64,000 bases of DNA from Grifola frondosa (lineage: Eukaryota > Basidiomycota > Agaricomycetes > Polyporales > Grifolaceae): positions 1,984,001 through 2,048,000 of the forward strand of contig LUGG01000003.1 in assembly GCA_001683735.1 (NCBI GenBank), given 5' to 3'. How positions within the stretch are numbered: position 1 is the stretch's first letter; the number at the start of each line of letters is the position of its first letter. A program made the position numbers and the translations under genes. The notes beneath the pieces were generated by a model, which made no database searches, was not told the DNA's origin, and was given only the letters and a program-made list of their open reading frames with translations. This document shows positions 29,870 through 57,493 of this stretch, piece after piece.

Positions 29870-30474
29870 CTGTATTCTGCTACAATGGTGTCACTTGCTA
29901 TACCCCGTGCTTTCGGATGCTATTGTGGACTGGATTTCGGATAATGTACTCAAGGTTTATATTTGGTGATGTCCGATATCTGATGTTTGACAATTGTTCC
30001 AGTTTGCCTTATGCAGCGAATGTCTTCTTGTGATTCATGTGGTACACAAACTATTGACTTATTCCAGAAGGCATACTATGACTCTCGATAGCCTCATGCC
30101 AGTCACCCGCGTGCGGAATGTCTCCGTTGATTTGTCTTATTGGACATCTGTCTTCGGACAATAGACGGGGTGCTTTTCATGTGAGTGAAATGCCTAAATT
30201 GACTAAAATGACTCGGTGTGGACTGCGACGTCTGATGCTGCAGTATATGGAAACGGCCGCGAGGTGATCTACGGACTCAATACCGCTTTTCAACATCCTA
30301 ATGTCCCTTCTTGGATTGTTCCTAGCGTTGGATCGTGTTTTCATAATTGGATTTTTTCTTATCAGGGTTATGACGAGGTTTTCCGGACTGCATATAAGGT
30401 GCTCACCCTCCACTGGATGATCCATCGCATTTGTCTTGCCAACTTCGCTCCTCCACGTTCAGTTTCTAAGTCAG
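29870..30474. other. Spacer between kinase-like B and its partner gene
   Basis: About 600 bases separate the two genes. The corresponding spacer in unit C (56013-56572) is similar in length but has little recognisable similarity beyond short blocks just before the partner start. No other feature seen. Confidence 0.4.
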
Positions 30475-31398
30475 ATGGCTGGCCTAACTGCTGATGAAGA
30501 GGCTCGAGTAGCTGCAGCGAGGGCTCGAGCTGCTGCTATTGAACGAATCTACAATGTAAGCATTATTACCAAGGTTTTTAGTGATCTTATGCTCACTCCA
30601 TCGAACCTTCGCTGTTTATCACTTTCAATAACGACAGACGCAGCCGCCCGACGGCAAATATGCGAAGCTCACTGCGGATGAAGATATCCGTCAAGGTTTC
30701 AAGGAGGGTACATTAGTTATTCTATACGGCCAGAGGTTGAATCCCATATCTCCACGTGTATGTATTTCCCCATCCTCCATGTGGCGTTCAACTACTCATA
30801 TATAAAATAGCCCAGTGAGTTACACCCAGAGGCCTGGATGTACAAAATCAAACGATGCTATATTGCTGGGCCCAAGTATCAGGAAATTCTTTCGCCAGAG
30901 TCGGGTAACAAGGTGATCACTGCTGGGAGTCTCACCACAACCCGTGGTCGGCCTACAGTGCCACAACCCGGAAGTCTTGTTGCGGGTAAAAAGGCATGTC
31001 ACATTTTAGGATGTAGTCCACCCACTGAACTGAGCTACTCGCAGGTGTTTCTATTGAAGCAGGTGTCGTGGCGCCAAGGCGAACATGAAATCACGATCCC
31101 TCAAGGAACACCCGGTAGAATCAAGTCGCGTGTATCGAGGGTGAGTTTATACCCTTTGTCGCTGACCCCTCAAACTTACAGACCGTAGGTCGGAAGTGGA
31201 CAGCCAGCGCGCAATGTCTTTCAGGTGGTGTTCTGGTGGAAGTATTACGAACTTGATTTCATCGAGTATGATACCTATGTCCGGTGGTCGTCTTTGAGGC
31301 CGTTGGAGCAAGGCGAGCGACCTATGATTCCCACCGTTCCCAATGCGGGCTGGGCTACGGAGTTTCCGACAGACTCAGGATCAGTAATGACAGCCTGA
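30475..31398 (+). CDS. Conserved hypothetical partner protein, copy B
   Basis: I do not recognise the family. Exon 1 encodes MAGLTADEEARVAAARARAA, an Ala/Arg-rich helix. Later exons encode TADEDIRQGFKEGTLVILYG, HPEAWMYKIKRCYIAGPKYQ, VFLLKQVSWRQGEHEITIPQ and the C-terminal ARNVFQVVFWWKYYELDFIE with WSSLRPLEQGERP, ending at 31396-31398. Copy C at 56573 has the same exon order and strongly similar exons, which supports a real gene. Exon edges are GT-AG except one junction near 30990 that is unclear. It always sits about 600 bases downstream of the kinase-like gene in the same direction, so the two may be linked in function or merely duplicated together. No membrane or signal segment. Confidence 0.6.
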
Positions 31399-35046: not shown

Positions 35047-37420
35047 GTGGTGACAGCGCCGACGACTATGGCCATCTGTCAATTTTGTCTTGCTTCCTTC
35101 CGCAGTGAACTTGCTGTTCGACACCATCAGGCTCAGTCCAAGGTGACCGGATGCCGGCAAAAACGCGATGAATGGCTCACTCACCTCTTCGCGCAACGTA
35201 AAGCCCGGCGTCGGGCCAATGAATTCGAGCTCAAGACCAGTGAAACCTCTGATCCTATCCCAGTAGATGATCAGCCATCCCCTTCCACAAGTTTCATGGA
35301 ACTGGACATACCCATAGAAGAACCAGACATCCTTGATCAAGATGCCGCACTGCCACGGAGGGTTCGAGTTGAAGAAGTGAGAGATGAGGAATATCCCGAG
35401 GCCCGATATTCACAGTGCCCTCCAATAGACCACCAAGGTGGTGCAGCCTATGGGAAAGCGGCGACTCAGTTCGAGGAAATCCATGACAACCAAGTGTTGA
35501 ATAGATGCGACATTTATGGACCATTTCAGGATGAAGATGAGTGGCAACTTGCAAAGTGGTTGATTAAAAATGTGGGACATGGGCAGGCGGAGGAGTTTCT
35601 GAAACTACCAATAGTACGTCAGATGTGAAAATTGACTGGGGATGTACGTACTCAATGAGCGGCAGATCCAAAAGCGGGTGAACCCATCCTTCCGCAATAA
35701 GGACGCACTTCTAAATGCGGTTGACGGACTTCCCTGTGGAGTTGACTGGCAGTGCCGCGACGTACAATTGACGGGGGACATACCAGACCAGGACGGCAAA
35801 GTTCTCACCGAAAACCTTGAGCTGTGGTTTCGTGATCCTGTCGAGTGTATTCGCGAACTGTTCAATAACCCTGCATTCCGTGACGTTCTCACGTACACTC
35901 CAGAACGGTGCTTTGTCAACGCAGAGGGCGAGAATCGGGTTATTAATGAGATGTGGACGGCTGACTGGTGGAATGACCTACAAGTGAGTAGAATCAGTTA
36001 GATATAGTGATAACCTCTTATCAAAGTCCTGAAGCTTCGGGTGCCATCAGGTGCAACAATCGCACCTATCATCCTATCATCAGACAAAACCCGACTGTCT
36101 CAGTTCCGTGGCGACAAGAGTGCATGGCCAGTTTATCTCACCATTGGCAACATCGCAAAAGCCACCCGCCGACAAGTATCAGCACATGCAACAGTGCTCA
36201 TCGGATATCTTCCCGTGGGTAAGCTCTCTTGCTTCAGCGAAAAACACGTTCAGCGGCCCAATATCGTCTCTTCCACCACTGCATGAAAACGATATTGGCC
36301 TCCGTGGCTCACGCGGGGATGTCGGGGACCATGATGGCCTGCGCGGATGGGCTGATTCGTTCTATCTGGCCGATTGTTGCGGCTTATGTTGCGGATTATC
36401 CTGAGCAATGTTTGGTGGCTTGCTGCATGGAAAATCGATGTCCTATGTGCCAGACATCACCCGACGCTCGAGGGAATCCTCACACTCACCCAAAGCGTGA
36501 TATACAGGAAACTCTAGACCTCCTGGCCAAGCAAGATGCCACCGCTCATGACAGTGCTTCTAAAGACAGATATAAGTCCCTCGGGCTCCGCCCCATACAT
36601 CCTCCTTTCTGGAAAGACTTGCCGTTCTCTGATGTCTTTCAGTGGTTTACGCCGGACCTCCTACACCAGCTCCATAAGGGCGTCTTCAAGGACCACCTCG
36701 TGAAATGGTGCACCGAGGTGATTGGCGAAGTCGAACTGGATGCCCGATTCCGCGCCATGAGTCAAGCTGTCAGCCTACGTCACTTCAAACACGGGATCTC
36801 GTCAGTTTCTCAGTGGACCGGACACGAGCATAAAGAGATGGAGAAGGTGTTTTTAGGGCTGATGATGGGCGGGCAGATGAACGTGTGATCAAAGCCACTC
36901 GCGGTGTGATGGATTTCATCTTCTACGCATCCCTTCAGTCCCACACCTCTGACACTCTCGCTGCCTTACAAGAAGCCCTGGACGAATTCCACGCACATAA
37001 AGACGTCTTCATCGAGCTCGGCACACGAAATCAAGATCATTTCAATATTCCGAAGATTCACTCCATGCAACATTACGTGGAAATGATCCGCCTATTTGGG
37101 ACCGCAGATGGATTTAACACGGAGTCGCCCGAACGTTTACACATCGACTATGCCAAAGACGCCTACCGAGCCAGCAACAGGAAGGATTACCTTGCTCAAA
37201 TGGTGATCTGGTTGCACCGGCAAGAGGCTGTGGATCGCTTCTCTCTGTACATCGACTGGCGTCAGCACGGTTTGCGCAGCAAGTCTGAACCCCCCACTGA
37301 CGACTGTCCTGACATTGCTGAACTTGAAGTTTGCAATGTAGCCTCTCCCGGAGCTCCGCTACTTTCTGCGTCACACTCAGATCCACTCGTCACTCCCGCT
37401 CTCTTGCTCCCTCGTAGAGA
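35047..37420 (+). pseudogene. Plavaka-type transposase, 5' part (gene interrupted at 37421)
   Basis: The N-terminus begins with a Cys/His cluster (ICQFCLASFRSELAVRHHQ). Later exons carry the Plavaka signatures: [53 protein letters not shown] with [55 protein letters not shown] and DGFNTESPERLHIDYAKDAY. Introns fall near 35613-35665, 35983-36030 and 36215-36275. One base is missing near 36873. Reading continues to YIDWRQHGLRSK and then ends at the inverted repeat that opens the inserted element. The conserved C-terminal region is found separately at 53030-53828. With the insertion removed the two parts would form one transposase gene. Confidence 0.8.
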
Positions 37421-37438
37421 TTCAGTTAGCCAGATACA
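37421..37438 (+). repeat. Left terminal inverted repeat of the 15.6-kb element
   Basis: TTCAGTTAGCCAGATACA. It differs at two positions from the complement of 53012-53029. Confidence 0.65.
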
Positions 37439-37600
37439 TCCGGTACATCACCTTCACCTGTGCCGGATACACCCGGGAGGTGGGCTCACCTCCTGCTTTT
37501 GCCCTTGCATTGGGTCAGATACATCTCGCCAATTCGGATACAACCGAGATTGCGAGATGCATCGGACTCCACGCTTCAATTATGGCAAAATAGATGCATT

Positions 37601-37667
37601 TGGCCCGGATCGAACCCGCAACTTTGGAAAGCAAAGCACATACCTGATACAACTGCGCCATGAAGGC
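37601..37667 (-). tRNA. tRNA-like sequence (degenerate tRNA or SINE head)
   Basis: On the minus strand an A-box-like TGGCGCAGTTG and a B-box-like GGTTCGATCC are spaced as in a tRNA, with TTTCC in the anticodon-loop position (a TCC or TTC anticodon is possible). The acceptor ends do not pair well and the T-arm lacks a base relative to GGTTCGANNCC, so a functional tRNA is unlikely. A tRNA-derived SINE or a decayed gene fits better. It lies in the left subterminal region of the 15.6-kb element. Confidence 0.4.
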
Positions 37668-37725
37668 TTTACAAATCTATATGGAGCTATTCTAATATCC
37701 ACTCATTTTGGCGTGGTGCTCGATA

Positions 37726-37815
37726 TATCCATCCCGCCGCCCATATACATCCCGCCGCCCATATACATCCTGCCTCCCATATACATCCAGCTGTCCATAT
37801 CCATCCCACCTCCCT
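37726..37815. repeat. Left subterminal tandem array, 18-base unit
   Basis: About four to five copies of a unit close to ATACATCCCGCCGCCCAT, degrading to the right. Confidence 0.75.
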
Positions 37816-38509
37816 TCCTCATTCATGCAGGTCGGATATTCATACATACCAAGATCATTTCATCTTATAACTACATGCTCACATGTATACATAAAGTAGT
37901 ACACTCTTACATGTATAGTAATAATCCAGCATTCCTTTCCCCTCCGTTATAGTGGACAACTGTCCAAACAGAGCTCTGTGCCGGCTTGCGCACGCGGGTA
38001 ATGTCCCAAGCTCAAATACGAAGCGCGCCAAAACCGTGCGCACGGATCTCTTCGAAATTGTGTGCGCGCATCTCTTCATTGAAGTGTATGCAAATTCAAT
38101 CATTTACCTAATTGCGCATGCACTTTCTGTGTGTCCTCTCAGCACAAAATACAATGCACACCAGCATCATGCACATAGATTTCTTCAAAGTTATGCATGC
38201 AGCGTGCAGACCTCTTCAAAAAAACACCGTGCATCATAATCGTGCGCGAGTCTCTCTTCAACGCAAATTGAACTGTTTGCTTAATTGCGCGGGTACATTT
38301 TGTGCATCTCGCAAGCTCGTGCATACATGCGCTTCCGTCGCGCTTCTAATAATACGAAAACACCGAAATCCATTACAGTACTCAATGCCACCATCCTACA
38401 TACTAATCCACATCCGTAATGCTTACCCTAAGGTCCAGCACTGTAACCGCATTCTACCAAACACGTTAGTGTAGTGCTAACTGCATTTGTTCAATACTTA
38501 CCGTCTCTA
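37816..38509. other. Non-coding left arm of the 15.6-kb element
   Basis: It holds reiterated words such as GTGCGCGCATCTCTTC and TTCAAAGTTATGCATGC, each followed by related near-copies, between 38030 and 38330. No gene is seen. It may be subterminal transposase-binding sequence. Confidence 0.4.
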
Positions 38510-41500
38510 TCCTATTTGCGAACGAAATCCGCCCCAACGACAACAACCGCGAATAACGACATGCTTGCCTAGATTATAATGAGTACGGCACCACCTACGC
38601 GAATATCTGACTCACTTTCGCGCATATGCGGCTGCCCCATGGTCTCCGCCCTTATCCAACTCCTCCGCTTTCCTCAGCCAGTCGCGCTCGAAGTATAAGA
38701 AAAATCGCAATGTCCGCCGCATTTCCTCCTCGACCAGCAACACTTCCTCGTGCCAACGCGCCTTGAGGGCATTTGATCTGAACCAGTGAACGCGCAGTGC
38801 TTTCCCGATGCACGTCAGTCCTAAATCCTCTGTGGAATATTCGTGTACATACCGTCCTCGAAAAACTCCTCATATCCCCCCGCAGCTTGACCTTCCACAA
38901 AAGAAAAGTTCTCCCAGATCCACGAAGGTGCTTCCTTGCTTTGCCCGATTTGTTGTTGCGCCGAATACATTGTGAACTTGCGGACATCTTCACGCTTCAG
39001 TTCCCTGTATGTAGGATCGTTAGCATTCATACCCAGCATTACCATAATCCGTCGCGCGCGGCGATATTCGTCGGCCGCTCTGTTGATGGCTAGTTGCTTC
39101 TGCCGGATTTGGTTTGTTGCCCGAGTATTCGCCCTTTGGCCCGAAACATTATGTTTCGCGATCTTGAAAGCCTCGTTAGTGATGATGTGAGTGCGCACAT
39201 CGTCCAGGGCATCGTTCGCTTGAGATTGTCGCAATTTCTGTTCTACCTCGATTGCACCGGCCATAATGTTGTGGTTGCGCACGGCCGGATCGTACGACGA
39301 TGGCACATCTATCTGGATTGCATCGACCTCGAACCACGCCGTACTTTTTGTACGCTGCGCGTCATCCTCCGGCTCCGGGTCACGCTTGCGCTTCCCTTTG
39401 GCCTTGCTGGTGGAATCGGTGACGGAGTCTTCGTTCTTGTCGTCTACTGCAGGCGCGGCCAAAGGAAATGATCTGGAGAAAGGACCGGGTGATTCCTCTT
39501 CTACGGTCTTCGCCGCCTCGTCGACCAACGGGGACAGATATCGATCCGATATATCTCTCCATTCCTTCCACTTCGCTGCGAACTGCTTGCGCTTATCGTC
39601 CAGCTCAGAGTGCGCACTATCCGTGCCATAATCATCTTGAATTGCAGCGAGAAGTGATAATCTAGCCAGTGTATGTCAGCAGTGCTGCTCGAAAGCAGAG
39701 GTCCTACGCACTTTTGAGTCTGGAGAGAGATGCCTTGCTCAATAGCCTCCACTAGACCCGGTGTCGCCGAATGATTGGGATCCGTTCGTGTGTTGAGATG
39801 CGCCAACATTTGTTTTTGTGTCAGGGCTGCGGCGCTTCGTCAGAACGGCAAAAGTCATCTGAACATTTACTCACCTGCCTCCCTGCGAGGCTCATACACA
39901 TTCTCTAGGTCCTTGTGTTTCCCCATATCGACCACTTTCCGCAGCCACTCATCCTCCTGCTGCTTCCAGTTTGCTAATTTCTCCGTGCTCACGTTTTCCT
40001 CCACACTGACCAGATGATCAGTTGCCACCTTCAGCTGCTTGACCGCACGTTCGTGTTTGCTTGATAACGATCGACCTGTGCAATGTACATCAGTAGTATA
40101 CGTCAAATTCAGCAATGAAGACCACACTTAAGCTGTGAACGCGGCGGATGTTCATGTCGGAGTGATGATCGTTGATCACGTCGTGGCGGTGACCCGACGT
40201 CATTTCTCGAGTCCGCGAAGCTAAGGCGTTGAGGGTAGCCCAAATCCTCTCAGGAGCTTCACCATCAGTCATCCCCACCCCTGGCAACCAATAGTAAGAG
40301 AACTTGAACCGACATTGCGCGATGTGAGCCGGCAAATGGAATTTGCCAACCGCTGCCAACGTCTGAGGCAAGCGGTAAGACTGTATCGAGGGGAGGTCTA
40401 TCGCACGTTGTGCAATCCAATGTAGGCGTGCGGCCAAATGAATTCGGTATTGACAATTGATATCGTAACCGGAAACGTGTAATCGAAGTCCCATCCATGG
40501 CTGTAACGCGGAAAGCATTGCAAAATCAACATTCGCGAATCTGCACCATCGGTTAGATCATAAGTGTGCGAGCATACCGTGGTGCATACCTTTCGCCTTT
40601 CTGCAGGTCCACGCCACCACACGGAAGCACGAACATGTGGCGAGCGCACGACAACCCAACGGTTCCTGATATTCGCCCGCCGTACCGCCCGTAGCCCAAC
40701 GCCCCGAACTTGTGGCATGTAGTAGGCTGATAAATTGTTAGCGTTCATGTCTGACGAAACAGAAAATCGCTCACCTCTTTTTGAATGGCCCAAGCCGCTT
40801 TTGATACAAGTCGAACTCTCGCTCATTCGCGTAGTACGCTGCCCCAAGGGTCAGCGGTAGATCGTTCGGGTCCATGGGTTTCTCGCGTTGATTTTGATGG
40901 AAGTTGCCATCCACGGTATGAAAAAGAGCGTCCAGAAAACTAGATATCAATGTATTAAGCACAATCCATTATAATGGATTAGGTATCGCGCTCACCGTTG
41001 CCCTTCCGGTCTCGTTCGCCAGTGCGGATCCATGTTGATGCCCGGCTGTGGGCATGCTGGACACAACACTGCGAGACTGCCCCTTGGCAAATGAATTTGC
41101 GGCTGTGTGCCTGCTCGTTTGACCGATCGTAAAAATGTAAATTCACGAGCAGCCGTCAAAAGCTCTCGATAGCGGTCCTGTACACCCGTCACGTCAGCGT
41201 GCAATCCGCCTCACAACCAGATCCACTTACCGGAACACTGTCGGGAGCCACGTTGTCCGTAGTCCGCCGCAGAAAAGTGAAGTAGTCGTGCGCATTCATC
41301 TGCGACTGCACAGATAGCAAATGGAAGTCGCGGAGCATATTGATCGCGAAAGCCGTCATCGGACGTTCCCAGGATGCAGGAAACAACCCAAATTGGATCA
41401 GCTGAAGGGGGTCTGCTAGTGGCGGACGACCGTCGGACAGACGACAAGCGCAAAAATGCACACACATGGAATGCACGCCATGGGCATGAACTACCGTCAT

Positions 41501-42142
41501 GCGGCGAGGTTCTGATAACGAATTAGGGCATATGGAACCTTCATGACCCAATCGGATAACGAGACCGAGCTCTCCAAGAGCACGTCGACGCCAAAAACCT
41601 CGTGGCATCCCACTCTTCTACTCGGTGGAAAGGGGTGTTGAAATGGTCGGCGATGATGCATTTGCGACACAAGGAGGATGAGTGATAACAGTCGAAGCAA
41701 CGGTACATTGGGTCCTCTGTACCGCATGCAGACTTGCACTTCGCGCACGAGCATGTCCTCCGCCGGTTCCAGACGTTGGACCTTGTTCTCGTTGCAAAAT
41801 CCCTGCCAAGGCTTGCGTCGCCCAATCTTTGAGAAATTGGGCCATGCGCACGGAAGGTGGCTATGAGTAGAATTAGTAAATCATCAGAGTCGCCACCGTG
41901 CTACGCACAATTGTATTGTTGACCGTAGCATTGCCACTTTGCACCTTCGACGGCTGTGACTCCTTCGCATATGGTGCGGGTAAAGCCCCAGGTTGATCCC
42001 CAACTCCAACCTTTCGAGCCGCCCAAGGATCAGGGGACACTGACGTCGAGGAAGATGAAGCCGCAGATTGGAATATATTTGATAGCCCAAACAGCCCGCT
42101 TTGCTTCGCGCGGACTTTGCTCGCCTTAGGTTTGGACGCCAT
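38510..42142 (-). CDS. KDZ (Kyakuja-Dileera-Zisupton) transposase with CxC2-like cysteine cluster
   Basis: Predicted DDE-type DNA transposase. The start at 42142 gives MASKPKASKVRAKQSGLFGL. After an intron a cysteine cluster appears (CSCAKCKSACG, then CFDCYHSSSLCRKCIIADH near 41640-41770). Family blocks follow: HGVHSMCVHFCAC, LIQFGLFPASWERPMTAFAI, VLCPACPQPGINMDPHW, LFHTVDGNFHQNQRE, VSGYDINCQYRIHLAARL, VGKFHLPAHIAQCRFKFSYY with LPGVGMTDGEAPERIWATLN, and SGHRHDVINDHHSDMN. The C-terminal part is helical and charged (DEYRRARRIMVMLGMNAND). A frame break of about one base lies near 41605, and several introns are inferred. The last exon probably ends near 38510 after a further intron. It is oriented opposite to the cargo genes. 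Confidence 0.85.
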
Positions 42143-42527
42143 AGGTCATGTCGTCGAACTGAAGGTAGAAACGAAGTCAAAATCCTTCATGAAAAAGCAC
42201 GTGACCCGCACATTTGCCAGGCAGCCGCATTCCATATCAACACCCGCGTTCACCGACAATCGCTCGTTTTCAATGCGAGGGACGGTACTACGTCCAGCGG
42301 GGGCCAGTATTGGTTACTTTCGCAGATACACGCCGTACAACACGGAATACATATTACAAAGCTCAGGCAGGCCGCTTCTTTCCCCCTCCCTACATATTCT
42401 CCTGAAATGCGGACGACAGGGTACCTTAATTGTCTTCACCATGGGCCTCCGGCTCCGTATACGAATGCAGGAAGATCCAATACTGCAATCCTGACATCAG
42501 TCGAGAAAGCAATGTATAAAAAGTGAA

Positions 42528-43182
42528 TTATCGTACCGTGGTAGGTGAGCGGCGTGCCCAACGATCGATTTCTAAAAGACGCGCTTCGATCGGACGAGCA
42601 GGTTCCTTCGCAGCATCTTCAATCTTCCGGATGAACATCTCCCAACCTTCTACATAATCCTCCCGGTCCTCACAAAAGAATATGTAAATCCTAGCGAGGT
42701 CGTGCACGATAGCGCGCCCATACTCCGGCACCACGCGCACTACGTCAGGGCTTCCGAGACGCGCGATCCATTGTTCGAACTGTGCTGAGGGGAACAGTTG
42801 TTCAGCGTGATGGGGAGATTGAACTGCACAACGCGTAAATTCTCTGTTAAAATCCGGACATACACATCACTCACGCGGTTATCGACCTCCAACGGCAATC
42901 CCTCCATCTGAATATAACACACTGGGGTGACGGTTAACGCCCAGTGGATGGAAAGGCCACAATCCCGGCGCGGGGACACAACGACATTCGACGTCGCTGC
43001 GGCACGTTGGGCAATGAGAGTTGTACGTGCACGGAGACCGCATTTGTGCCTTGATCCCGATGCACAGATACTGCTGTGGGAGATGCAGTAGCGGGAGACG
43101 AATAGCGGGACGGAGTAGCTGCATGGGCAAGAGAGTGCGACTGGCGCAGTCTTGAGCGGAATTCAGCCCGACGGCGTGCCAT
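42528..43182 (-). CDS. Small hypothetical protein upstream of the KDZ transposase
   Basis: I do not recognise this family. Translation from 43182 gives MARRRAEFRSRLRQSHSLAH, a basic N-terminus, then a Ser/Thr/Ala linker. Near 42970 a one-base shift is needed to continue into CGLSIHWALTVTPVCYIQME and LPLEVDNRVSDVYVRILTEN. The C-terminal part reads RVVPEYGRAIVHDLARIYIF with EDREDYVEGWEMFIRKIEDA, an alpha/beta-like composition. It is read in the same direction as the transposase, about 0.4 kb upstream, and may be a second element-encoded protein. Confidence 0.5.
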
Positions 43183-43579
43183 GTAACGTACGGCTCTCAG
43201 GAGACCGGTGAGTGCGTGGCATCGAAAAAGAAACTAGCGGGGAGGTAGAGCAATCAGTCTTTAAGTCCGAAGTACAAGAGACCCTCGTACCAAGGGAAGA
43301 CACGCAGATCAGATACACCTAAAAAGCCTGAAATGACAAGATTATTCGCATGATTAGGGTGAAAAATGGAGCATGCACCGGAAGAGATCCCGCAATCTAA
43401 ACCGGACTGTGAGAGCCGTGGCACTGCATCCAGAGGGTCCAGAGGGCAAATGTTCACCCGAAGAAAGGGTTTCGTGGCCAGGCCGTCATGGGACGCTCAA
43501 CAGCAGGTAGTACCTGCCGGAGTATGTCCCGGTCGCTCAACAGACGGTTGTGCTCTGGAGCTCGGTCGCGACGTGCTAG

Positions 43580-43790
43580 AGAGCGGGGAAGAGACAGCGG
43601 CAGGAAGAGACAGCGGCGGGAAGAGACAGCGGCGGGAGAGACAGCGGCGGGAAGAGACAGCGGCGGGAAGAGACAGCGGGGCAGAGACAGCAGCGGGCAG
43701 AGACAGCAGCGGGGAAGAGAGCGGCGGGGAAGAGAGCGGCGGGGAAGAGACAGCGGCCGGAGACAGCAGTGGGGAGAGAGGCTTGGGAGG
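43580..43790. repeat. GC-rich minisatellite, about 15-17-base unit
   Basis: At least twelve imperfect copies of a unit close to GGCGGGAAGAGACAGC. Both strands stay open through it, which is a side effect of composition, not evidence of a protein. It separates the minus-strand transposase module from the plus-strand cargo. Confidence 0.85.
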
Positions 43791-43889
43791 AGAGGCGTAG
43801 GGGAGCCATCGGGGGGAGAGAGTGTAGTAGGCGGAGAGGTGCCAGCTCGAAGGCTGAACTAAACTCCGACGGCCCGTGCTGGGAGTTGA

Positions 43890-44250
43890 TGCCGAATTCG
43901 GCACTCAGGTGACTGGGCGCCGAGTTGTGACCACTTTGGCGCTCAGGTGACTGGGCGCTGAGTTGCCACTTTGGCGCGGAGCTTGAACACCTTCTCACGC
44001 ACGGGCCATCCAGGCGCTCATTCCTCTGACTTCCGCCTCTGCCTTCTTCCTCATTCCCCTTCCCCAATCTGGCTCTCTCCTCACCGCTTTTTGCTCGCTG
44101 CTCGCTGTTCGCGTTCTCCATTCTGCGCGTGCCCGCCCCGACGTCACGTTATCGACTGCCTTCCCATTCCTTCCCCTCTTGCTTCTCACTACTTTCTGCT
44201 TGCTGCTCGCTGTTCGCCTCGATTCTTCGCGCGCACGCCCCGGCGTCAAC
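43890..44250. repeat. Two sets of imperfect direct repeats before cargo gene 1
   Basis: A unit containing CTCAGGTGACTGGGCGC and GAGTTG occurs twice at about 43900-43980. A second, roughly 60-base unit containing GCTGCTCGCTGTTCGC occurs near 44089-44149 and again near 44191-44250. They may be promoter-proximal repeats of the element. Confidence 0.6.
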
Positions 44251-44783
44251 ATACTTGGTAAGTTTCCATTCACGTCGCGCCTACGTTGACTGATACGCGT
44301 GGTCAACAGCGCGACTTCTTCTTTCACAGGTCTTCGACGCGGCGCTGAAGGGCTGGTCCATACCAACCCTCCACTGCCGTATACACCTTGGGCCCAGTAG
44401 ACACCGTCTGCTGTGTGCCTGGTCGTTGTCGCTCGTACATTGTACGTCCCATCCGCTTCGTGGTGCCGATTCTTGCCTCCCTCAGCTTCGTGGTCTCTGG
44501 TGGTTCCCCCTCCCCCTCGCCTCCCCTGTGTATCCTCGGTTCCCTCCCATTCTCAAGGCTCCGTAGGCGTGCGCGTTGATTCGGCTTGTTCCTTCAGGTA
44601 TGATTCAATTCTTCTTTCTAGGAGTTTCTGTGCGCTAATCGTGTGTGCTTGGTGATCGGTCTCGATTGTAGCTACATCACTTGTTGTAGTAGTGTTCGGT
44701 CATCCAATATACCTTTTTTGTTCTGTGTAGGTCTTAGAACGTAGTACATGTGTTTCTTCGGGCGCTGACAATAAGAAAAGAAT

Positions 44784-46994
44784 CATGTCGCGCCATCTTC
44801 AGGAGATTTCTCCTGAGCCAAGGCCTCTCCCACCAATGAACCCTCGATCGTGAGGGTCCATGATGTAGCATTGAAGCGCACCCACAAATTGCGTGCGTTT
44901 CTTTGTCATTTCTTTTTTGCGAACGATCTTCAATTTTCAAATTTTGAATTAGGTTCCGGGCAAAAGGTCCACGCTTTCGATGCACTTGTGGCCGCCGAGA
45001 GTCTCAGCGATACGTGTCTGTGGACCACGCCCAATATGACGTGGGTGCCGAAGTTCCCTCTCGCTCGCCATGGTCTCCTAGAGATCATGCATGACGGCCG
45101 CTTCGGCCTCCATGAATACTCTCGCTGGCCACAATATTATTCTCAAAACATCATTCACTGCGCTTGCATCCCCAGCACTGCTTCCCCTGAGTTCGCGCCG
45201 GCCGTTCTCTTCCGACACATTCGCGAAGAGGATTTCGAACGCGATAAGGAATGCGGGATCCAGGGCGTTGGATTCCTGCGGCCGCAGCTTATGTCCGAGC
45301 TGTTTCAAGGAGCCGAGCAAATCATCCAACGCTGGGACCGTTCAGCCATGAACCACAAGGCACGCCGTGCGCCTGGAGACAGGATGAAGCTGGCGCTTCA
45401 CAACTCGATGGATCGTCTGCGTCGGCTGCCTTCTGGATGGGAGACCGTACTTGTGATAGCTGCTCACGTCCAGCGGCTCTCCCTCGAGCTAGCAGGTTTC
45501 ATTACCTGGAACGAAGTTGTTGCTGCGCGGTGGGAAGATCCGTCGTTCGCCACGCGCGATGTGCTCCCCGTCCTCGGCGCGTTCACGAACTCTCCCACCA
45601 CGGCCATGATGTTCCACCGCGTCGGCTTACCTGTGTGGCTGATCCAGCAGCACAGCGCTCGCTCGTCATCTACGACATCGTGGAACCAGTCGGCCTGCCA
45701 TTCGACATGGACAATAACCCTACCCGTCCGTCATTGGTCAACATTTTCGACAACGGCCAAGGCATTGTGGCAGCGCCGGGCTACTGGACCGAGCTTATCC
45801 AGCATGCCTTGATGAAGAACATCGGCGACCGTCGTCTTGGATCTCTCCTCCCCCCTGCTCGTGAACAAGTCGTCAAGCGTCAGAAGCTCGACGAAGGCGC
45901 TGCTCAGCGGCGCTCCAAGTCAACTCATCGAGGCCCGAGGCGATCGCGCAGGAAGGCCGCTGCCGCAGGCAAGGAGAATCGCAGCGATGAGTCCGCTTCG
46001 GGCGAGCCCATCAGTCCGCCGCCTACCGTCGTCACCAATCTCACCCATCCGGCCGTGATGCATTATCCTCCCGTTCCCCTCGTCGGCATGTCTTCGCCGT
46101 GGATGCGTGCATTGCAGAGCATCTCTCCTGTCCCCCCTTCGGAGGACGCACATAGGTTTTTCTATCCGCCTCCTTTTCTCTTGTCCTCCATGCCGGGGGT
46201 TAACCCAGCTGACGAGGACGAGGTGCTGAAGATCACGCGGTACATCCACAGTTTGGCACGCATTCGCTCGTTCTGTCGCTCCCGCATAATGGAGCCCACC
46301 CTTTCTGGCGACCCCCTCACGCTCACGCAATGGCGTGATGCCCTTTGGGGCGAATATCTGTACGATCCGCATGCCGTCCCCCCTCTAAAGGTCTCTCCGG
46401 CCGTTGAGAGGCGCCACAACTCGAAGGTGGACGCTCGCCGACTTTTTGGGAAAGTTGGCCGCATCCCGACCTACTTCTCTGACGATGAGCCCATTGTCAG
46501 TGGCATCACGGTCTCGACAACGGTGGCTCGCGATGACCGCCGCCTTCGTGGGCTACTCCTCTGGGAGTGCCACGAAATCAACTTCAGGGGAGAGTTGTTG
46601 GCTGTGGATGAGGTGCTCCTCGGATCCGCTACGTGGTCGCCGTTGGCTAGGTGGGCTCGGGAGAAGGAGGTTGCGAAGGTCTGGACAGCAGCTGGGGGTA
46701 CAGCGGTGAGCGTGGTGCCATTGGACTTCGAGACGGCGCGAGAGAGCTATCGATGGCGTTGTACCGTCCCCAGGCAGCACGCGCAGCAGGGATACCGTCG
46801 TCGCATTCGTCTCGGTCCTTGCGTCCTGGCCATCGCTCCCGCGTGAGCTTGCTGTGCAGCCTGCTTGGCTTCAGACATGTTCGAGCGAGGAGCTTGTGCG
46901 CGCTCAGGACAATGCAGTATTGTTTTACACGCAGTCCTTCGGAAGAGTGTTCCATCGTTTGCCGACGCCGCCCGTGTTCATGAACTTGGATTAG
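44784..46994 (+). CDS. Cargo gene 1: large protein of unknown function
   Basis: No family is recognised. A start at 44784 gives MSRHLQEISPEPRPLPPMNP. One base later in frame (about 44850) the protein continues through LGSGQKVHAFDALVAAESLS, RHGLLEIMHDGRFGLHEYSR, HSMDRLRR-type helices (SMDRLRRLPSGWETVLVIAA), AHVQRLSLELAGFITWNEVV and PTTAMMFHRVGLPVWLIQQ. After a further shift near 45660 it reads SLVIYDIVEPVGLPFDMDNN, a basic NLS-like stretch (VVKRQKLDEGAAQRRSKS; RGPRRSRRKAAAAGKE), DALWGEYLYDPHAVPPLKVS and DARRLFGKVGRIPTYFSDDE. It ends in RELAVQPAWLQTCSSEELVR to the stop at 46992. Estimated 720 residues, probably nuclear. First of three genes read in one direction inside the element. Confidence 0.6.
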
Positions 46995-47450
46995 TGTAGT
47001 GCGGACGTCATAGTTTTTGTTTGCTATGCTCATTGTATGCCTTGCTGTTAGCGTATGCTGCTCTCATTTCGTCTTTGCTTTCGCGCTGCCTGTGGATCGA
47101 CGCTTCGCTCCTCAGGCACTTCCATTTGGTCCTTCGTCGTGATCGTGCTGGATCTGGACTTTTCGGGCGCTCTTGCTTGCCGCTTTCCTGGGTGGATCGA
47201 GTTTTTCTTGCGGCTGGATGTATTATTCTGCAGTTATCGGAATTGATCGTTGTTTCTTTCTTTCACCGTCTCCTCGGAGACCGTCGGGCTTGTTTTGAGA
47301 TTGGCTACCGGGTAAGGCGGATTTCCGACACTGAACAATGCCTTCCAGGATCTCTTGCTCTCTGGCACAGTAGCTTTCTGCGGCGGGAACCTTTGGTGAG
47401 ACATTGTCCCTGCGTTGAACTCATGTACTGATGATTACGCCGTAGAAAAG

Positions 47451-49434
47451 ATGGGGAAGACAAAATGGCGCCCTGAAGAACTGGCCTTCTTGCTGGAGGC
47501 TCGCAATTCACAGGAGGTAATTGACTTACTCAACGGGGGAGAGACTGGTAGCCAGCGAGCGGCTGCGACTTGCATCACTCAGCGATACCGCGACCACTTT
47601 GGCGACACTCCCTTTCAGGCTGAGAGCCCAAGAATTCAGGTACGATTGGCAGGTGCGAAGCGCAAGAATCGGTCACGAATGGTTCGTCTTGAGGAGGAGT
47701 CCGTTGAAGAAGCAGAGGCTCGTCTGGAGGGTATTGCCAAGGTACGAGGTGCCTGGCATTGAACGATCAATACTAATGCCTTACTTAGCGCATCTACAAC
47801 TGGGTGAAGAATGCCAGCGAGAAGCGCAAGCGCACGAAGGCTACTGTGGTGCCGCCTGTGCCAATGGCCGGTACGCCAGCCCGCAAGCCCAGCGCGCTGG
47901 ACATCTACAAGAAACAGCATCCGGATCGCCCTCAAGCTGAAGTCAGCAGGGAACCGACGGACGCGCTAGAGCCAACATTGGTAAATGGGCCTCCGAAGCC
48001 AAAGCCCGATTCGACCAGCTGAGCCCGGAGAGAAAGCTGCCTTCGCGCAGGAAGCGGAGACTCAAGGGAAGGCACTCGAAGCTGAACTCGCAGCTCTTGG
48101 CCCTGAAGGCATTCGCGCGCGGTAAGTCAATTAGATTTCTGTGCGGGATAATTCTTACGGCGTGCACAGGAAAGCTTCCTCGATGCCAGACTGGTTGGAA
48201 GCTTGTGCACGAGGATGGTATGATCAAACTGGTTGGGTAGGGTTCTACATCGCGGGCGGCGTTGATGCCAATGGGAATCTACAAGCATATGCGTGAGTCC
48301 GTTTAAACTCGTTACTGGTTGATTCGGCTGACGTCACATGTAGAACAAGCATTGGCAAGGATGCAGCGGGCTGTGACTTCGAAACGCGGCTGTGCGCTCT
48401 TGCAGGTTGGCCTTCCGACCGTATTCGCGGCAAATTCACAGAGTTTTTATCCGACTTATTCAAACGTGAGTATCAGTCGTGTTCAATCGGGCATTCTCCT
48501 CAATTGATCCTATACTACAGCACCGCCGCCTTCCCGCCGTCGCACACACGAGCGTCGTGCTCCACCTTGCCCGAGCAAGGTGACGAGCTCTCTGGCGCAT
48601 TGGCTGCGTCCCAGCCATCGCCTTCTCCCCCACGAGACACCTCGCCGGAGCTCTACCAACCGGAATCACCCCAACCATCCGTCCCATCGCCTGCTCGCAC
48701 GCGTGAGAACTCACAGGAGGTTTCGCGACCAGCATCTCCTCAACCATCCGTCCCTCGCCTACTTGTGTGCGACAGATCCCGCAGGATGTTTCTCAACCGG
48801 CATCCCCTCAACCTTCGTTATCACAGGCAGTCGTGGCGGAGATCGTGCACAAGGGTGCGTATTCCTCGTGATCGATCATTCAGGATTAGCTAACACATGA
48901 ACTTTGACTCACAGCGATCCAAGGTAAGCTTGCAATAATGTTGATGAGGCAATCATACTAACGAGCGCAATGTAGAAACCTTGACTGACGGAAACCAGCC
49001 GACGCGCAAGAAGTCGAGGAAGTCCAAGTCAAAGAAATCCAAATCAAAGAAATCAAAGTCTGTTGATAACGGTACGTAGTTGACCACATTCTTCATACAT
49101 TCTCATCTACAACATAATATTACAGACCCCGCTTCAGCCGCCAAATCTTCTGGCACCGCGCGCGTTGCAAAGCCAGTACGAACGGTCCAGCCTGTGGACA
49201 CTTCATTGATTATTCGAGCTCCACGGGAGCGGAAACCTTCAGGTCGCCTTCTTGGCGAAGATCCGTAAGTGAAATATTCTGTCAATCAACAGACTAGAAA
49301 GAACTCACTTACGGTGCAGGGTGCAGACTACTGTCGCTCTGCAAAAGCGGAAGGCGCGCAGAGCCTCGAGTCGCTTGAACCGAAGTCGACGAAGCGTCGC
49401 CGCGGGTGAACTTCACGCAGCTACCTTCCACTAA
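47451..49434 (+). CDS. Cargo gene 2: HMG-box-like protein with basic C-terminal tail
   Basis: The N-terminal domain MGKTKWRPEELAFLLEARNS with EVIDLLNGGETGSQRAAATC and ITQRYRDHFG looks like a helical DNA-binding fold. After an intron comes an HMG-box-like segment: RKPSALDIYKKQHPD, then WASEAKARFDQLSPERK with FAQEAETQGKALEAE. Next a Trp-rich domain (SSMPDWLEACARGWYDQTGW, VGFYIAGGVDANGNLQAYAT, FETRLCALAGWPSDRIRGKF) is followed by a Pro/Ser/Gln linker. A lysine-serine tail of KSKKSK repeats (49010-49070) precedes further basic residues to the stop at 49432-49434. Two missing bases near 47980 and 48033 break the frame. DNA binding is inferred from composition and the HMG-like stretch; partners are unknown. 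Confidence 0.6.
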
Positions 49435-49850
49435 ATTCCGTAGCTACGTTATCGTATTCTTGTCGTAGTTACTTGGTTCCCGACTGTGACAAGAGTGATA
49501 CAGCTCGACAGGCAGCCGGTGTCCGTGGGATAAGATCTGCTGTCCCGGGCGTTGGTGGATAAATGAGTGATCTTGATATTTCCGGTATGTTTTGAAATTA
49601 ATCTTGAGGTGATCGATCTTCACGGGCACTTAGAAACACGGCAGGGAAGTTTCGTCGTTCCGTGCCCTGAAAGTGTGGTCGAGCTCAGCGTTATCGCGTA
49701 TTTGCTTCCTCCAACGCATCGGCCGATGCGCTCTTCCGCCTTCTGGAGAAATTTGACATGGCGCGATCCAGGCTGCGTATGTTATAATCTATCTGACTTC
49801 TGTGTTTCTCTTCTCGTGCACGTCCATCCCTCACTATTCTCACATTTCCC

Positions 49851-52302
49851 ATGCCTTCTAAATACTCTAACGCTCTCAGGACTCTCTGCGAGGAGGGTTC
49901 GAAAGAATATCGCCCTAAAGACAGCCCGAAAGTTTGCCCTACTTGCGGCAACGGCGGCAAGATCATCTGTAAGTTGGCGTTCGCCAGCGAGCATGCGGGC
50001 GAATGGTTCTTTAAGGTATGTTTCTACTTACTTAGACGCACTGCGGGGCTCATTTGCTGTCCATCAGTGCACGTACAAAAATTTCGAGAAGAACAAGTAC
50101 TGCGATTGGTTCTCCTGGACCGGGGCAGCTCCCTCTCCATCGAAGATTGCCGCCATTCAGGCACTCATTGCCGATGAAGAACGTATTCCCTGGAGGCCGA
50201 TGCGAATCGTCTGGGAGCGACGGCGGAACGCGCCCGGGTTGCTGAAGAGAAGGCGGGTGCCGCGAGGAGGTGGCTAAGGTGCGGCACGAGAGGGCGGTGG
50301 TGACGGCGCGAGCGGCACAAGAACGAGCAGACCGTGCTTTGGCGACGAAACTGCAAAGTGATTTGGATAACGAGGTAAGCGAGAGATCAATATGCGGTAA
50401 TTCCACACTAACCTAGTGAATCTTAGGGATGTTTGGGGAAGCGTCGCGCTTCGATGGACCTCACAGAGGGCATCCCTGAGAAAAAAAGGCTGGTTGAAGA
50501 GGGTGCTAGCCCCCAGGTAAGTGATAACCTACCCTCAAATGAACTCCTGCTGACTGCTACTGCATAGACGACAGGTTCGTCGAGCGGTGTGACTCCATCC
50601 GGGCTTGGATGGTCCAGCTCGCAGGTGAGCCTCAATCCTTGTGTTACGTGTTACAGAACTAATCATACATTGATCAAGCCCACGGCTTCTACTCCTGGCA
50701 CGTCAGCTACGAGCCCTACCGACTCCTTGAAGGGTAAAGGCAAAGGCAAGGCGTTGTCGTCTCGCAAGACACCCGCCATCAATGCCATCGTCCGCGTGCC
50801 CACTATGACTCGAATTCCTAAGCCGGTGACGTTCCCCCTCCTCAGCCAGACGTTTAACGAGAGGGTCGCGACCTCGGGTACCGCGCCATCTGCTGGTGAT
50901 CACTCTTCTGGATCGGCGTCTCTCCCGCGCAGTTTTTTCGTCCCTTCCACGCCCTCGGATGGACCATCTCCTCCTATCAAGGCGGCTCGCATCGTACGCA
51001 TCACGACTGGCACTAGGCCGGTCACCCAGCCTCTCACCCAGAAGTCCAACGACGTGTTTGGCCCTTCCACGTCCTCGGATGGACCGTCTTCTCCTACCAA
51101 GGCAGCTCGCATCGTACGCATAACGACTGGCACTAAACCGGTCACTCAGCCCCTCTTCACTCAGAAGTCCAGCGAGAAGACGGCGACTGGGGCATCGGCT
51201 GGCAGCGCTCCTCCTGACTCCGCGTCTCGCTCTAAGAGCACGTTTTTTGTCCCTTCCACGCCCTCGGATGGACCATCTTCTGCCAGCAAGAGAGCTCGCA
51301 TCGTACGCACCTCGACCCTCTCGCGCCTCCCAATCCCCATTACACGGATGCCAGTCACGCCAAAGGCGTCCGTCGTTCATACCACTGGCCCAAGCTATGC
51401 CCGCTCTCCCTCTCCCCTCGTAGCGTCATCTCTATCTCTTCCGATTCGGATGCTGAGCCGACGTTGGATATTGGCGCGGCGGTCGATGCAGCAATCTCGG
51501 ACACCTTTCCCACTCAAAAAGTGTGGATGACGGCAGCACGCAAGGTGTATACCTCCCTCGCATGCGAATTCCTGAAGCAACAGACATCGAAGGAGCACAG
51601 CCCTTCAAGCGGGAACGACAGCGGCAAGGAGAATCGCCACCCCCGCTGCTCGCAGCGGAGGAGGCGATCGGGCCCGATGACAACGATGCATTACCCCGTT
51701 CATCGCAGGTCAACTCCAGCCCGGAGTTGGTGGCTGGTCTTCGAACTGACAAGGACCCCTTCGCCTCCCTCTTTACAGAAGAGATGTCAGGTGGGCATGC
51801 TTCGGACCTCTACACTTCCGACGAGGATCCCCTCGACAAGTTGACATGGGATGAGTCGGACGAGGAGTTTGAGCCGGAAAGGGGCGGCATGAGGTCCTCA
51901 TCTTCTGAGCCGGAATGGGCAGTGTCGACGGAGCAGGACTGGTTCGCGCTCGAAATTTACGTGTGGAACCAGGTATGTCCGGTTGCTAATTCTCTCGAGC
52001 GCGAACTCACATTCACGTTAGTCGGGCAAGCGACCACGGCCGTTCTATATCACTGTCCCTCGTGAAGGGAAAATCAGCATCGCGCGACTTCCAATCGTTT
52101 TAAAGTGCTTTACCGATGCTAATGTTGTGCATTTCCAGCGTTGGAACCCGGTGATGCGGATATGGGAGGCGAATAAACTTACGGACGTTTCTGGGTCCAC
52201 TGCGAGCTGCGGCGAACACTCATCCTACGTTTTCCTGGGGTGGATCCGTGCACCGGGATGGAGGACTTCCTTCACAAGTTGGACAGGGAGTCCATGTTGT
52301 AG
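49851..52302 (+). CDS. Cargo gene 3: GRF-type zinc-finger protein with SUMO-interaction-like motif
   Basis: The first exons give SPKVCPTCGNGGKIICKLAF, then ASEHAGEWFFKCTYKN and KYCDWFSW: the spaced Cys, Trp and Phe residues fit a GRF zinc finger, a fold that binds single-stranded DNA or RNA in other proteins. A coiled coil follows (RAAQERADRALATKLQSDLD). Then comes a long Ser/Thr/Pro region with three copies of a roughly 40-residue repeat built on FVPSTPSDGPS and ARIVRITTGT (50930-51310). A motif VISISSDSDAE (about 51430-51455), in another frame than the repeats, resembles a SUMO-interacting motif. The C-terminal domain has PFYITVPREGKISIARLPIV and HCELRRTLILRFPGVD and stops at 52300-52302. 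Frame breaks occur near 50270, 51410 and 52190. Confidence 0.6.
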
Positions 52303-52474
52303 GAAGGTATGTTGTTTATATTCAATGCCTGTGCTGCACACTAACCGTTGACAATGCAGAAGTCTACTTAAAATAGAATACAGAATGTGATGTTGATATT
52401 TTGTCTGATGTTCAAACCGCGTGCAAGTGTGAGAGGTATAGGTGAGTCATTCTCAGTCATGGCGTAGCTACGGG

Positions 52475-52925
52475 TGGGGATGCGAGCGTCGTCGTCGGAT
52501 ACATGTTGTGGCGTCGGATACATGTTGCGCCGTCACGGCACTTACTGTATGATGGCCACGGGCGAGGATAGGTGCATCGTCGTCGGATACATGTTGCCGT
52601 GTCGGATACATGTTGCCATGTTGGATACATATGGCGGCGTTGGGGCACTTGGTGTATGATGGGTCCGGCATGGCTACGAGCGAGGATGGAGCGTCGTTGT
52701 CGGATACATGTTGCCGTGACGGATACATATGGTGGTGTCGGGGCACTTGGTGTATGGTGGCCACGGGCAAGGATGCGAGCGTCGTCGAGGATACATGTTG
52801 CCGTGACGGATACATATGGCGGTGTCGGGGCACTTGGTGTATGGTGGCCACGGGCAAGGATGCGAGCGTCGTCGAGGATACATGTTGCGGCATCGGATAC
52901 ATCTTACGGTGTCAGGCAACGATAC
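52475..52925. repeat. Right subterminal tandem array, 87-base unit
   Basis: Units start at 52702, 52789 and 52876 (exactly 87 bases apart) with GGATACATGTTGCCGTGACG, and more diverged units lie upstream to about 52475. Each unit repeats GGATACAT twice. The array sits just inside the right end of the 15.6-kb element and would suit transposase binding or heterochromatin seeding. Long open frames through it are artefacts of the repeat. Confidence 0.85.
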
Positions 52926-53011
52926 ATATGGTATGTACAATCTATATTGTATGTACGATCTATATACACCTCGGAATATGTATCTATTTTTGTTCTACTC
53001 CATCTACTTTC

Positions 53012-53029
53012 TGTATCCGGCCAACTGAA
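53012..53029 (-). repeat. Right terminal inverted repeat of the 15.6-kb element
   Basis: The complement reads TTCAGTTGGCCGGATACA, matching the left terminus at 16 of 18 positions. Plavaka coding sequence resumes immediately after. Confidence 0.65.
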
Positions 53030-53828
53030 GTCCCTCCTCCCTCAGTCATCGGTGCTCCTATCAGGCAAGCAGTACAAGGTCGCGAAGAGTCACCCACCTC
53101 ATCTGCGTGGAGTACTCGCAAGTACGCTGATGACGGATCATCATGCACCTTGCTTTCTAGATGGTCTGTCAACCTATCTACGCAACAACGGCTCCTTGTA
53201 CATACCCCATGCCTTCGACAGCTTTGACATATACTCTCGTTTATCACTCCAACTGCCTCCGATTCCCGCTGCTGGTGCCCGTCATTCAAAGGACGTTGTG
53301 CGTGCCACACCACCTATAGCAGCACATGGTCGGCGCAGCGCGCAACCTGCACACTTGGATTTTGCATTTATAAGGACGGGTGAGAGGAACACTGTGACAG
53401 ATGGGACACCTCTACAAGGTATGTGCAAATGCTTCATTTCGACATCTTGCCGGTGCTCACTCCAGCGCTGCTTAGGTCTTCGCATTGCCCACGTTCGTAT
53501 CATCTTCAAACTGCCGCATCACTATCCTGTCCACTCTCCACACCCTCTCGCCTACATCGAGTGGTTCACACCACTTCATCGTTTTGACGAAGATGCCGGA
53601 CTGTTCACGGTGACGCGCTCGACACGTATGCAACAGCCTTATGGCGAAATCATTACTGTCGACCGTATTGTTCGGAGCTGCCATCTGATTCCGAAGTTCG
53701 GGAGGGAGATTGATTCTCGTTGGAAGGCGGATAATGTGACGGAGCTCTGTAAGTCATACTATGTAAATCCTTACTTCGACACCCATACATTTTGTATGCT
53801 TCGTGCACAACAACCAGGATGTATATAA
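53030..53828 (+). pseudogene. Plavaka-type transposase, C-terminal part
   Basis: The frame opens immediately after the inverted terminus (KSLLPQSSVLLSGKQYKVAK) and continues through the typical Plavaka C-terminal region: GVLASTLMTDHHAPCFLDGL, PHAFDSFDIYSRLSLQLPPI, then after an intron (53420-53475) LRIAHVRIIFKLPHHYP, HPLAYIEWFTPLHRFD, ITVDRIVRSCHLIPKFGRE and VTELCKSYYVNPYFDTHTF. It stops at about 53828. There is no start of its own. It is the 3' half of the gene begun at 35047, on the same strand and in the right order, displaced by the 15.6-kb insertion. Confidence 0.8.
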
Positions 53829-56012: not shown

Positions 56013-56572
56013 GCGACTTCGATATTCGTCATCCTTGTTTTCTGTTATGTTCCTGAATTCTATTGTGGGCTGGATTCAACCTCAAATATTGTGATCGATG
56101 TGTCTCTGGTTGCTCATTCGCTGGTTTGGTATCTGATGCTGAACTTCTTTTTGTGTTTCCATAATAGTCTCCATAATATGACTAGAAGACCAGCCTCGTG
56201 TCATCAATCACTTCCAATACCTCTCCGTTGATGGTTCTCACGGAGAATTACCATCTTCGGCTGTGAAGAATGGGTTGGTTCATGCGACTGAAAGGACGAA
56301 ATCGTATGCGATGACTCGGTGTGGGCTACAGCGCTAGACACCACAGCACAGAAAATCAACGCGAGGTGATGAGCGGATGCAATACCGCCTTTTTGCATAC
56401 TAATATCCCATTTTAGACCATACCAACGTTCGGCGGCACAAAAGATCTCGCACTTGTGAGTGGTCTTGTTTACGTCGCAGAGCAACCAGACCACATATAA
56501 ACTGCACGGTCTCAACCCAACCAACCATTCTTCCCCGTTAGTGACATCTTCTTTGCTCTTCACTCCAGTTCC
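56013..56572. other. Spacer between kinase-like C and its partner gene
   Basis: No gene seen. It corresponds in position and length to 29870-30474. Confidence 0.4.
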
Positions 56573-57493
56573 ATGGCTGGCTTGACTGTCGAAGAGCAAG
56601 CTCGAGCGGCCGCAGCTAAGGCTCGTGCTGCAGCTATTGAACGTATCTACAATGTGGGTGGCGTTACGTTTGTAATGATTCGACATGCTCACCATTCCAT
56701 CACTGTCGTTGGACTTCAAATACGTTAACTGTAGACACAGCCGCCCGAAAACAAGTACGTGAAGCTCACGATGGATGAAGATCTACATCGCGGATTCAAA
56801 GAGGGTACTATTGTTTTATTATACGGTCAAGTCGTGAATCCTGCGTCTCCACGCGTAAGTGTTCCCAAGTTACCATAATTTCGGGCTCATCTCCCCGTCA
56901 CATAGATCCAAGAGCCTCACCCCGAAGCTTGGATGTATAAGATCGGGCGCTATGCAATTTCCGGCCCTAAGTATCGGGAAGTTCTCTCCCCTGCATCGGG
57001 AAACCAGGTAATCGCGGTGTCGAATCTCACCATGTCCCGGGATTTTAATGCGGGACCGGTGCGAAACACCATTGCTGCAGGTAGTAATGTACGTTGAGTT
57101 CAATACTTGTTGTGCATAACCTGAGCTATATGTAGGTATTTCTACTGAGGGAAGGACGTTGGGGCCAAGGCCGGAATGAAGTCCGGGTCCCTCAGGGAAC
57201 ACCCTGTCAAATCAGGTCGCATGTGTCTCGCGTATGTTTATCATCCATCTCTCATCAACCCTTTCGTAATGATCCCGAATTGCCATTTTTGTCAATGATA
57301 GGTTGGGAGTGGACAGCCAACGCGCAATTTCTTCCAAGTTATGTTCTGGGTGAAATATTATGAACTCGACCTCATCAAGAATCAAATCTGCGTCCGCTGC
57401 TCGTCCTTGAGGCCGTTGGCACCAGGGGAGCAACCCATTATTCCTAAATTGCCGAAGCCAGACTGGTCTAAGGAATTCCCGCCCGACTCCTGA
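56573..57493 (+). CDS. Conserved hypothetical partner protein, copy C
   Basis: Paralogue of the gene at 30475, with the same exon order. Exon 1 gives MAGLTVEEQARAAAAKARAA. Later exons carry TMDEDLHRGFKEGTIVLLYG, HPEAWMYKIGRYAISGPKYR, VFLLREGRWGQGRNEVRVPQ and RNFFQVMFWVKYYELDLIKN, stopping at 57491-57493. No frame break was seen, so this copy appears intact while its kinase-like neighbour is damaged. Substitutions between B and C concentrate at variable surface-like positions and spare the FKEGT, HPEAWMYKI and YYELD words, which indicates purifying selection on the protein. No known domain. Confidence 0.65.

Follow-up and report, generated by a model that had tools for sequence, protein, structure and literature searches.

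A probable KDZ-superfamily transposon with accessory genes of its own, nested in a Plavaka transposase gene of Grifola frondosa

The DNA transposons of the KDZ superfamily in mushrooms have been called understudied (PMC8290104). Kyakuja elements produce 7-bp target duplications and have CA..TG ends without inverted repeats; two of them, Kyakuja-1_LB and Kyakuja-2_LB from Laccaria bicolor, carry a further gene inside the element in addition to the KDZ transposase, and possess TET/JBP (PMC12730594). Here we analyze an element in a 64,000-nucleotide stretch of contig LUGG01000003.1 of the mushroom Grifola frondosa (hereinafter, the window) that resembles the Laccaria elements in the KDZ transposase, the occurrence in Agaricomycotina, the 7-bp duplications and the presence of additional genes, but differs from them in having GT..TC ends, 18-bp inverted repeats located 7 bp inside these ends and, instead of TET/JBP, a small gene and three further genes that we denote A, B and C. 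In our assessment, it is very probable that positions 37414-53036 of the window hold a DNA transposon of the KDZ superfamily that was inserted recently, with its own transposase and four genes that belong to the element. Given the 7-bp target duplications, the element is perhaps to be placed on the Kyakuja side of the superfamily.

Other described KDZ elements share fewer of these features. Zisupton and Dileera have a KDZ transposase, and Zisupton also has inverted repeats, but both produce 8-bp target duplications (PMC12730594). The Cryptococcus elements KDZ1, KDZ2 and KDZ3, for which movement has been seen, are 9.2-11 kb long and differ from the Grifola element in their inverted repeats of 139-241 bp and in the presence of CxC1 rather than CxC2; their duplications are 8 bp (KDZ1) or 4-8 bp (KDZ2 and KDZ3) long (PMC12810828). 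The intact KDZ elements of Pleurotus ostreatus are similar in that a CxC2 cluster precedes the KDZ domain (PMC7641404). Already known are KDZ elements that produce 7-8 bp duplications and contain a further gene (PMC12730594), as well as the movement of KDZ elements (PMC12810828). A term search of titles and abstracts, with supplements and the founding KDZ paper of 2014 outside its scope, yielded no description of the A/B gene set in KDZ elements, and the novelty of this gene set is not established. The founding paper is reportedly that of Iyer and others.

Insertion into the Plavaka gene and the borders of the element

The initial annotation, made from the sequence of the window, described a Plavaka transposase gene split by an insertion of about 15.6 kb that begins and ends exactly at a pair of imperfect inverted termini. 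The split and the position of the inverted pair hold, whereas the true ends of the element lie 7 bp further out on either side: the insert spans positions 37414-53036 (15,623 bp) rather than 37421-53029. The edges were located by searching the Grifola genome with queries spanning each of them, a procedure that does not assume an inverted repeat. On the left, the repeated sequence starts at 37412-37414 in all 12 other left ends and is preceded by unique sequence; the 14th match to this query is a Plavaka relative. On the right, 11 other places were matched: in eight of these the repeat ends at 53036, in two it extends by one more base and in one by 16 bases. Accordingly, the Plavaka sequence is interrupted after 37413 and continues behind the duplication, instead of at 37420 and 53030. 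Comparison of the flanks reveals the target duplication CTCCCTC, which had been missed initially, at 37407..37413 and 53037..53043. When the flanks are joined computationally with a single CTCCCTC, both Plavaka parts, including a probable intron, are read through in a single open frame of 454 amino acids. The nesting of the KDZ element inside the Plavaka transposase gene is real.

Plavaka (CMCT clade) is a separate superfamily that enters this analysis solely as the interrupted target gene. Its 5' part (35068..37413, plus strand) contains the PF18759 domain in the Pfam database (E 1.1e-59, frame 36223-36885), starts at the first ATG of the frame, not at 35047 as originally proposed, and reaches the target duplication. 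The 3' part (53044..53828, plus strand), which holds the probable intron, has no Pfam match when searched alone; its 52 matches in the genome, two of which lie in the window itself, are at loci where the 5' part is present as well. The uninterrupted Plavaka genes that had been suggested as a check are present in the genome: both parts lie within 1.2-1.3 kb of sequence in insert-free relatives, for example at C6:1946825-1948023, C7:1398345-1399574, C3:1237302-1238538 and C16:343649-344968 (C followed by a number denotes a contig, and also the element copy that it contains).

A long frame crosses the junction in five of ten joined empty sites, a proportion for which the background rate was not computed: 454 amino acids in the window Plavaka, 391 in C13, 339 in C19a, 279 in C20 and 255 in C6. 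In the C19a target, the left half matches RVT_2 (3.7e-10), and in the C13 target, the left half matches DUF4100 (8.1e-9); neither half of the C20 target matches Pfam, the sequence being copia-like by eye, and the C6 target has only a sub-threshold kinase match. The long junction frames, together with the RVT_2 and DUF4100 matches, indicate that at least some of the insertions sit in other mobile elements.

Termini and copies of the family in the Grifola genome

The left inverted repeat, TTCAGTTAGCCAGATACA (37421..37438, plus strand), and the right one, with the reverse complement TTCAGTTGGCCGGATACA (53012..53029, minus strand), match in 16 of 18 bases, exactly as first reported. The common 18-mer, TTCAGTTNGCCNGATACA, occurs 25 times in the 39 Mb genome and not once in the reversed control, and hence the pairing is not due to chance. 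Both N positions are A in all 13 left ends and G in all 12 right ends; the two mismatches therefore represent a fixed difference within the family rather than decay. Outside the inverted repeats, the terminal 7-mers GTAGAGA (37414..37420) and GTCCCTC (53030..53036) are identical in 13 of 13 left ends and 12 of 12 right ends, respectively. Inside them, repeat comparison and motif counts delineate subterminal tandem repeats on the left, ATATACATCC (37725..37814, plus strand), and subterminal repeats on the right, GGATACAT (52478..52914, plus strand). Of 15 GATACAT motifs, 14 are in forward orientation and confined to the outermost 800 and 620 bases; the remaining motif, at the right end, is reversed, and there is none between the two end regions. 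A tRNA-like stretch lies near the left end (~37593-37665, minus strand), with words that we take to be A- and B-box-like, and the part surrounding it is conserved at 94-100% identity in the 12 other left ends; for this stretch, ARAGORN and Rfam were both negative.

The 25 terminal 18-mers (13 left and 12 right ends) form 11 complete pairs, with three ends (on C25, C28 and C40) remaining single; the search for additional copies with these termini and this gene set, suggested initially as a check, was thus successful. The 7-bp duplication is perfect in nine of the 11 pairs and matches at six of seven positions in C19a and C8; the chance of a perfect match is 6e-5 per site. The single left end at C28:44401 and the single right end at C25:267303 have the same flank, AGCGCAG, and thus may be the two halves of a single element that was broken up by rearrangement or by misassembly. 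Taken together, the 11 end pairs, the target duplication, the in-frame join and the uninterrupted Plavaka relatives contradict the view that ordinary host genes lie between two unrelated Plavaka remnants, a view for which no support was found and to which we assign a practically negligible probability.

Nine copies including that in the window were read, eight of them whole and C6 in part, and two more are known from their ends and gene matches only. The core is identical in gene set across the copies read, and the unit moves together as a whole, in agreement with the initial view of a transposable gene set. Six copies of type A are ~96-99.8% identical outside the right-end repeats, C19b lacking ~0.37 kb. 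The type B copies (C22, C13 and C6) are ~98% identical to the window copy across the left 5.5 kb; across the right 8.5 kb, the identity is ~92% in C22 and C13, and 88% in the 2.0 kb of C6 that fall there. Against C22, the window copy is nearly identical leftward of 42.9-44.5 kb of the window, only ~68-83% identical within that interval and mostly 88-99% identical rightward, a pattern that makes recombination between subfamilies at this point likely.

The four larger copies that were analyzed span 19.2-34.6 kb and owe their extra length to nested insertions; as judged by eye, retroelement-like frames are present in three of them and inverted ends in one. Among the six type A copies, there are 119 private substitutions over 14,158 invariant columns, five of these in the window copy; C>T and G>A changes make up 73 of the 119, with 58 of the 73 at CpG. 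Private 1-bp deletions are even more numerous than substitutions (156, of which 94 at C/G steps), which suggests that many of them are assembly consensus errors.

The transposase and the accessory genes

The KDZ transposase gene (38821..42142, minus strand) consists of several exons. The PF18758 domain is identified in frame 40090-40557 with an E value of 2.9e-32 (112.6 bits against a cut-off of 26.6); the CxC2 domain PF18803 is detected in the sister copy C13 (E 4.6e-32), in a stretch that corresponds to ~41246-41575 of the window, and cysteine motifs are seen in the window at 41682-41753. The motifs VDGNF (40900-40914), SGYDINCQY (40447-40473) and TDGEAPERIWA (40237-40269) presumably contribute the D, D and E of the catalytic triad. 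The PF18758 domain, the CxC cluster (by way of C13) and the duplication of ~7-8 bp are the features that connect the element with the KDZ superfamily. The initial list of genes, namely a KDZ transposase, a small gene on the minus strand and three genes on the plus strand, is thereby upheld, the transposase by PF18758.

The small gene (42528..43182, minus strand), delineated from frames and its conserved place, encodes 217 amino acids where it is open (copy C2) and is broken by small indels in the window copy. Gene A (44785..46994, plus strand, limits approximate) was defined by frames, homologues, selection and the model of a relative, and would encode a mostly helical protein of ~660-700 amino acids; the predicted model of a 48% identical relative (predicted local distance difference test score 84.9) has no clear match to any solved fold. 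Homologues of gene A also occur on contigs of Ganoderma, Trametes and Lentinus. Gene B (47451..48900, plus strand, 3' limit approximate), for which one named homologue was found, from Grifola frondosa, has several exons, as judged from frames, conserved order and the exon reading in a diverged element on contig C15. Gene C (49851..52351, plus strand, limits approximate), recognized by its frames and by a counterpart that the C15 element has in the corresponding position, appears by eye to have a Cys-rich N-terminal part, a coiled coil and a low-complexity middle. Among the pieces of these four genes that were scanned, none matches a Pfam family above the cut-off.

Purifying selection acts on gene A and on a short piece of gene B. 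Between subfamilies, the ratio of nonsynonymous to synonymous substitution rates (dN/dS) is 0.12-0.13 for gene A over 401-411 codons in six comparisons and 0.07 for gene B over a short piece of 63 codons; wrong-frame controls yield 1.82 and 2.48. These genes are also linked to KDZ beyond the family, at loci found by single-sequence searches of the genome. Gene B lies 6.2-9.3 kb from KDZ on the opposite strand at all 13 such loci; gene A is within 15 kb of KDZ at 15 of 28 loci, on the opposite strand in 14 of the 15; the small gene is 2.1-2.6 kb upstream of KDZ on the same strand at six of seven loci. About 6% are expected by chance within 15 kb of KDZ, and the linkage persists at ~26-59% protein identity. 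For gene C, there is one weak match only (62% over 39 residues, E 1.1e-4) outside the family. The C15 element, when read directly, has KDZ, the small gene, A and B in this order, followed, where C would be, by a gene that includes a coiled-coil-like stretch. The recurrence of A and B in fixed order in strongly diverged KDZ elements implies that the plus-strand genes are not captured passengers, and in this respect the original notion of cargo fails. Gene-A-like copies with equal scores but without a KDZ detected nearby are seen at C1:841000-843800, C1:1039717, C1:2301169, C3:302123 and C3:812003; these might belong to another type of element or else to KDZ elements with a missed or lost transposase.

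Starships are large elements of Pezizomycotina with a tyrosine recombinase and variable cargo. A mobilizer of this kind, with captured host genes and variable passengers, would account for the size, the several non-transposase genes and the copies of up to 34.6 kb, and the Grifola element likewise is a large fungal element with several genes. This reading is nevertheless largely contradicted, and we regard it as very improbable, because all nine copies read share a constant core, the length added in the larger copies comes from nested insertions resembling mobile elements, diverged KDZ elements again contain A and B, and a KDZ transposase is present; no tyrosine recombinase was found among the element pieces scanned with Pfam, which do not cover every frame. 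It is improbable, to a lesser degree, that only the transposase and the ends matter and that the other four genes have been hitch-hiking as relics that persist because the copies are young. The youth of the copies, with five private substitutions over ~14 kb in the window copy, and the dN/dS values of 0.56-0.95 for the small gene and gene C are compatible with such a scenario; for A and B only, it is contradicted by the low dN/dS and by the linkage at high divergence.

Several observations weigh against the interpretation of the locus as a KDZ transposon with four genes of its own. No KDZ was detected near 13 of the 28 gene-A-like loci; no clear purifying selection is apparent for gene C (0.56 and 0.95) and the small gene (0.84); and the KDZ pieces are too alike between copies for a dN/dS test, one piece of 251 codons having no synonymous and three other changes. 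The frames of the window copy carry small indels, so this copy may be dead, unless the indels are assembly errors. In the other five of the ten joined sites, there is no long frame (at most 123 amino acids). Finally, the GT..TC termini with inverted repeats are at odds with the Kyakuja pattern (PMC12730594). Overall, the initial observation is partly confirmed and its interpretation is supported.

In a conceivable mechanism of transposition, the KDZ/CxC2 protein would bind the GATACA repeats packed at both ends and bring the ends of the element together, and the ends would then be inserted at cuts staggered by 7 bp. The proteins A and B may be helpers encoded by the element that act in the assembly of the end complex or in protection from silencing.

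TET/JBP genes and two kinds of KDZ elements

The TET/JBP domain (PF12851) has 22 matches in the genome, and for 17 of these there is a KDZ on the same strand with the match 1.1-2.4 kb upstream of it, approximately where the small gene sits in the present family. Within 5 kb upstream of KDZ, TET/JBP is found neither at the 13 loci of the family itself nor at the 17 other loci with A or B. Among 78 KDZ loci, merged by hand, 17 have TET/JBP, 30 have A or B (these 17 others and the 13 of the family), none has both and 31 have neither; the hypergeometric probability of this non-overlap is 7e-5, the copies not being independent.

The split between TET/JBP and A/B is the most interesting and also the least secure lead of this analysis. 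Tentatively, and with somewhat less than even confidence, we suggest that the genome harbors two alternative kinds of KDZ elements, one equipped with TET/JBP to undo DNA methylation, and the other one with the A/B pair and the small gene as a second way of moving or escaping silencing. More doubtful is the specific proposal that A, B and the small gene form a TET-independent counter-defence, which replaces the TET/JBP dioxygenase of other KDZ elements. The shared position upstream of KDZ and the lack of overlap are in line with this proposal, and the prevalence of C>T and G>A changes, mostly at CpG, suggests methylation. However, no finding ties A or B to chromatin, and the CpG decay occurs in the family despite its carrying A, B and the small gene. 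Furthermore, elements with TET/JBP may hold diverged A/B genes missed by single-sequence searches, the gene A profile having been applied, with no match, to the 4 kb beyond one TET gene; and 31 of the 78 KDZ loci have neither gene set.

Elsewhere in the window, repeat pairs ~75% alike at 30176-31376 and 56279-57489, with a spacing of 26.10-26.11 kb, lie outside the Plavaka parts and may be a duplicated neighbour, and frames at 1148-5028 (minus strand) resemble, by eye, gag, reverse transcriptase and integrase of a gypsy-type retroelement.

The family is young, has 11 insertion sites with known duplications and resides in a cultivated mushroom, maitake. If A and B are standard components of a single KDZ lineage, many proteins of Polyporales now labelled 'hypothetical proteins' are encoded by transposons and should be annotated accordingly. 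A split between A/B and TET/JBP within one genome would make it possible to test directly whether transposons counter DNA methylation in more than one way.

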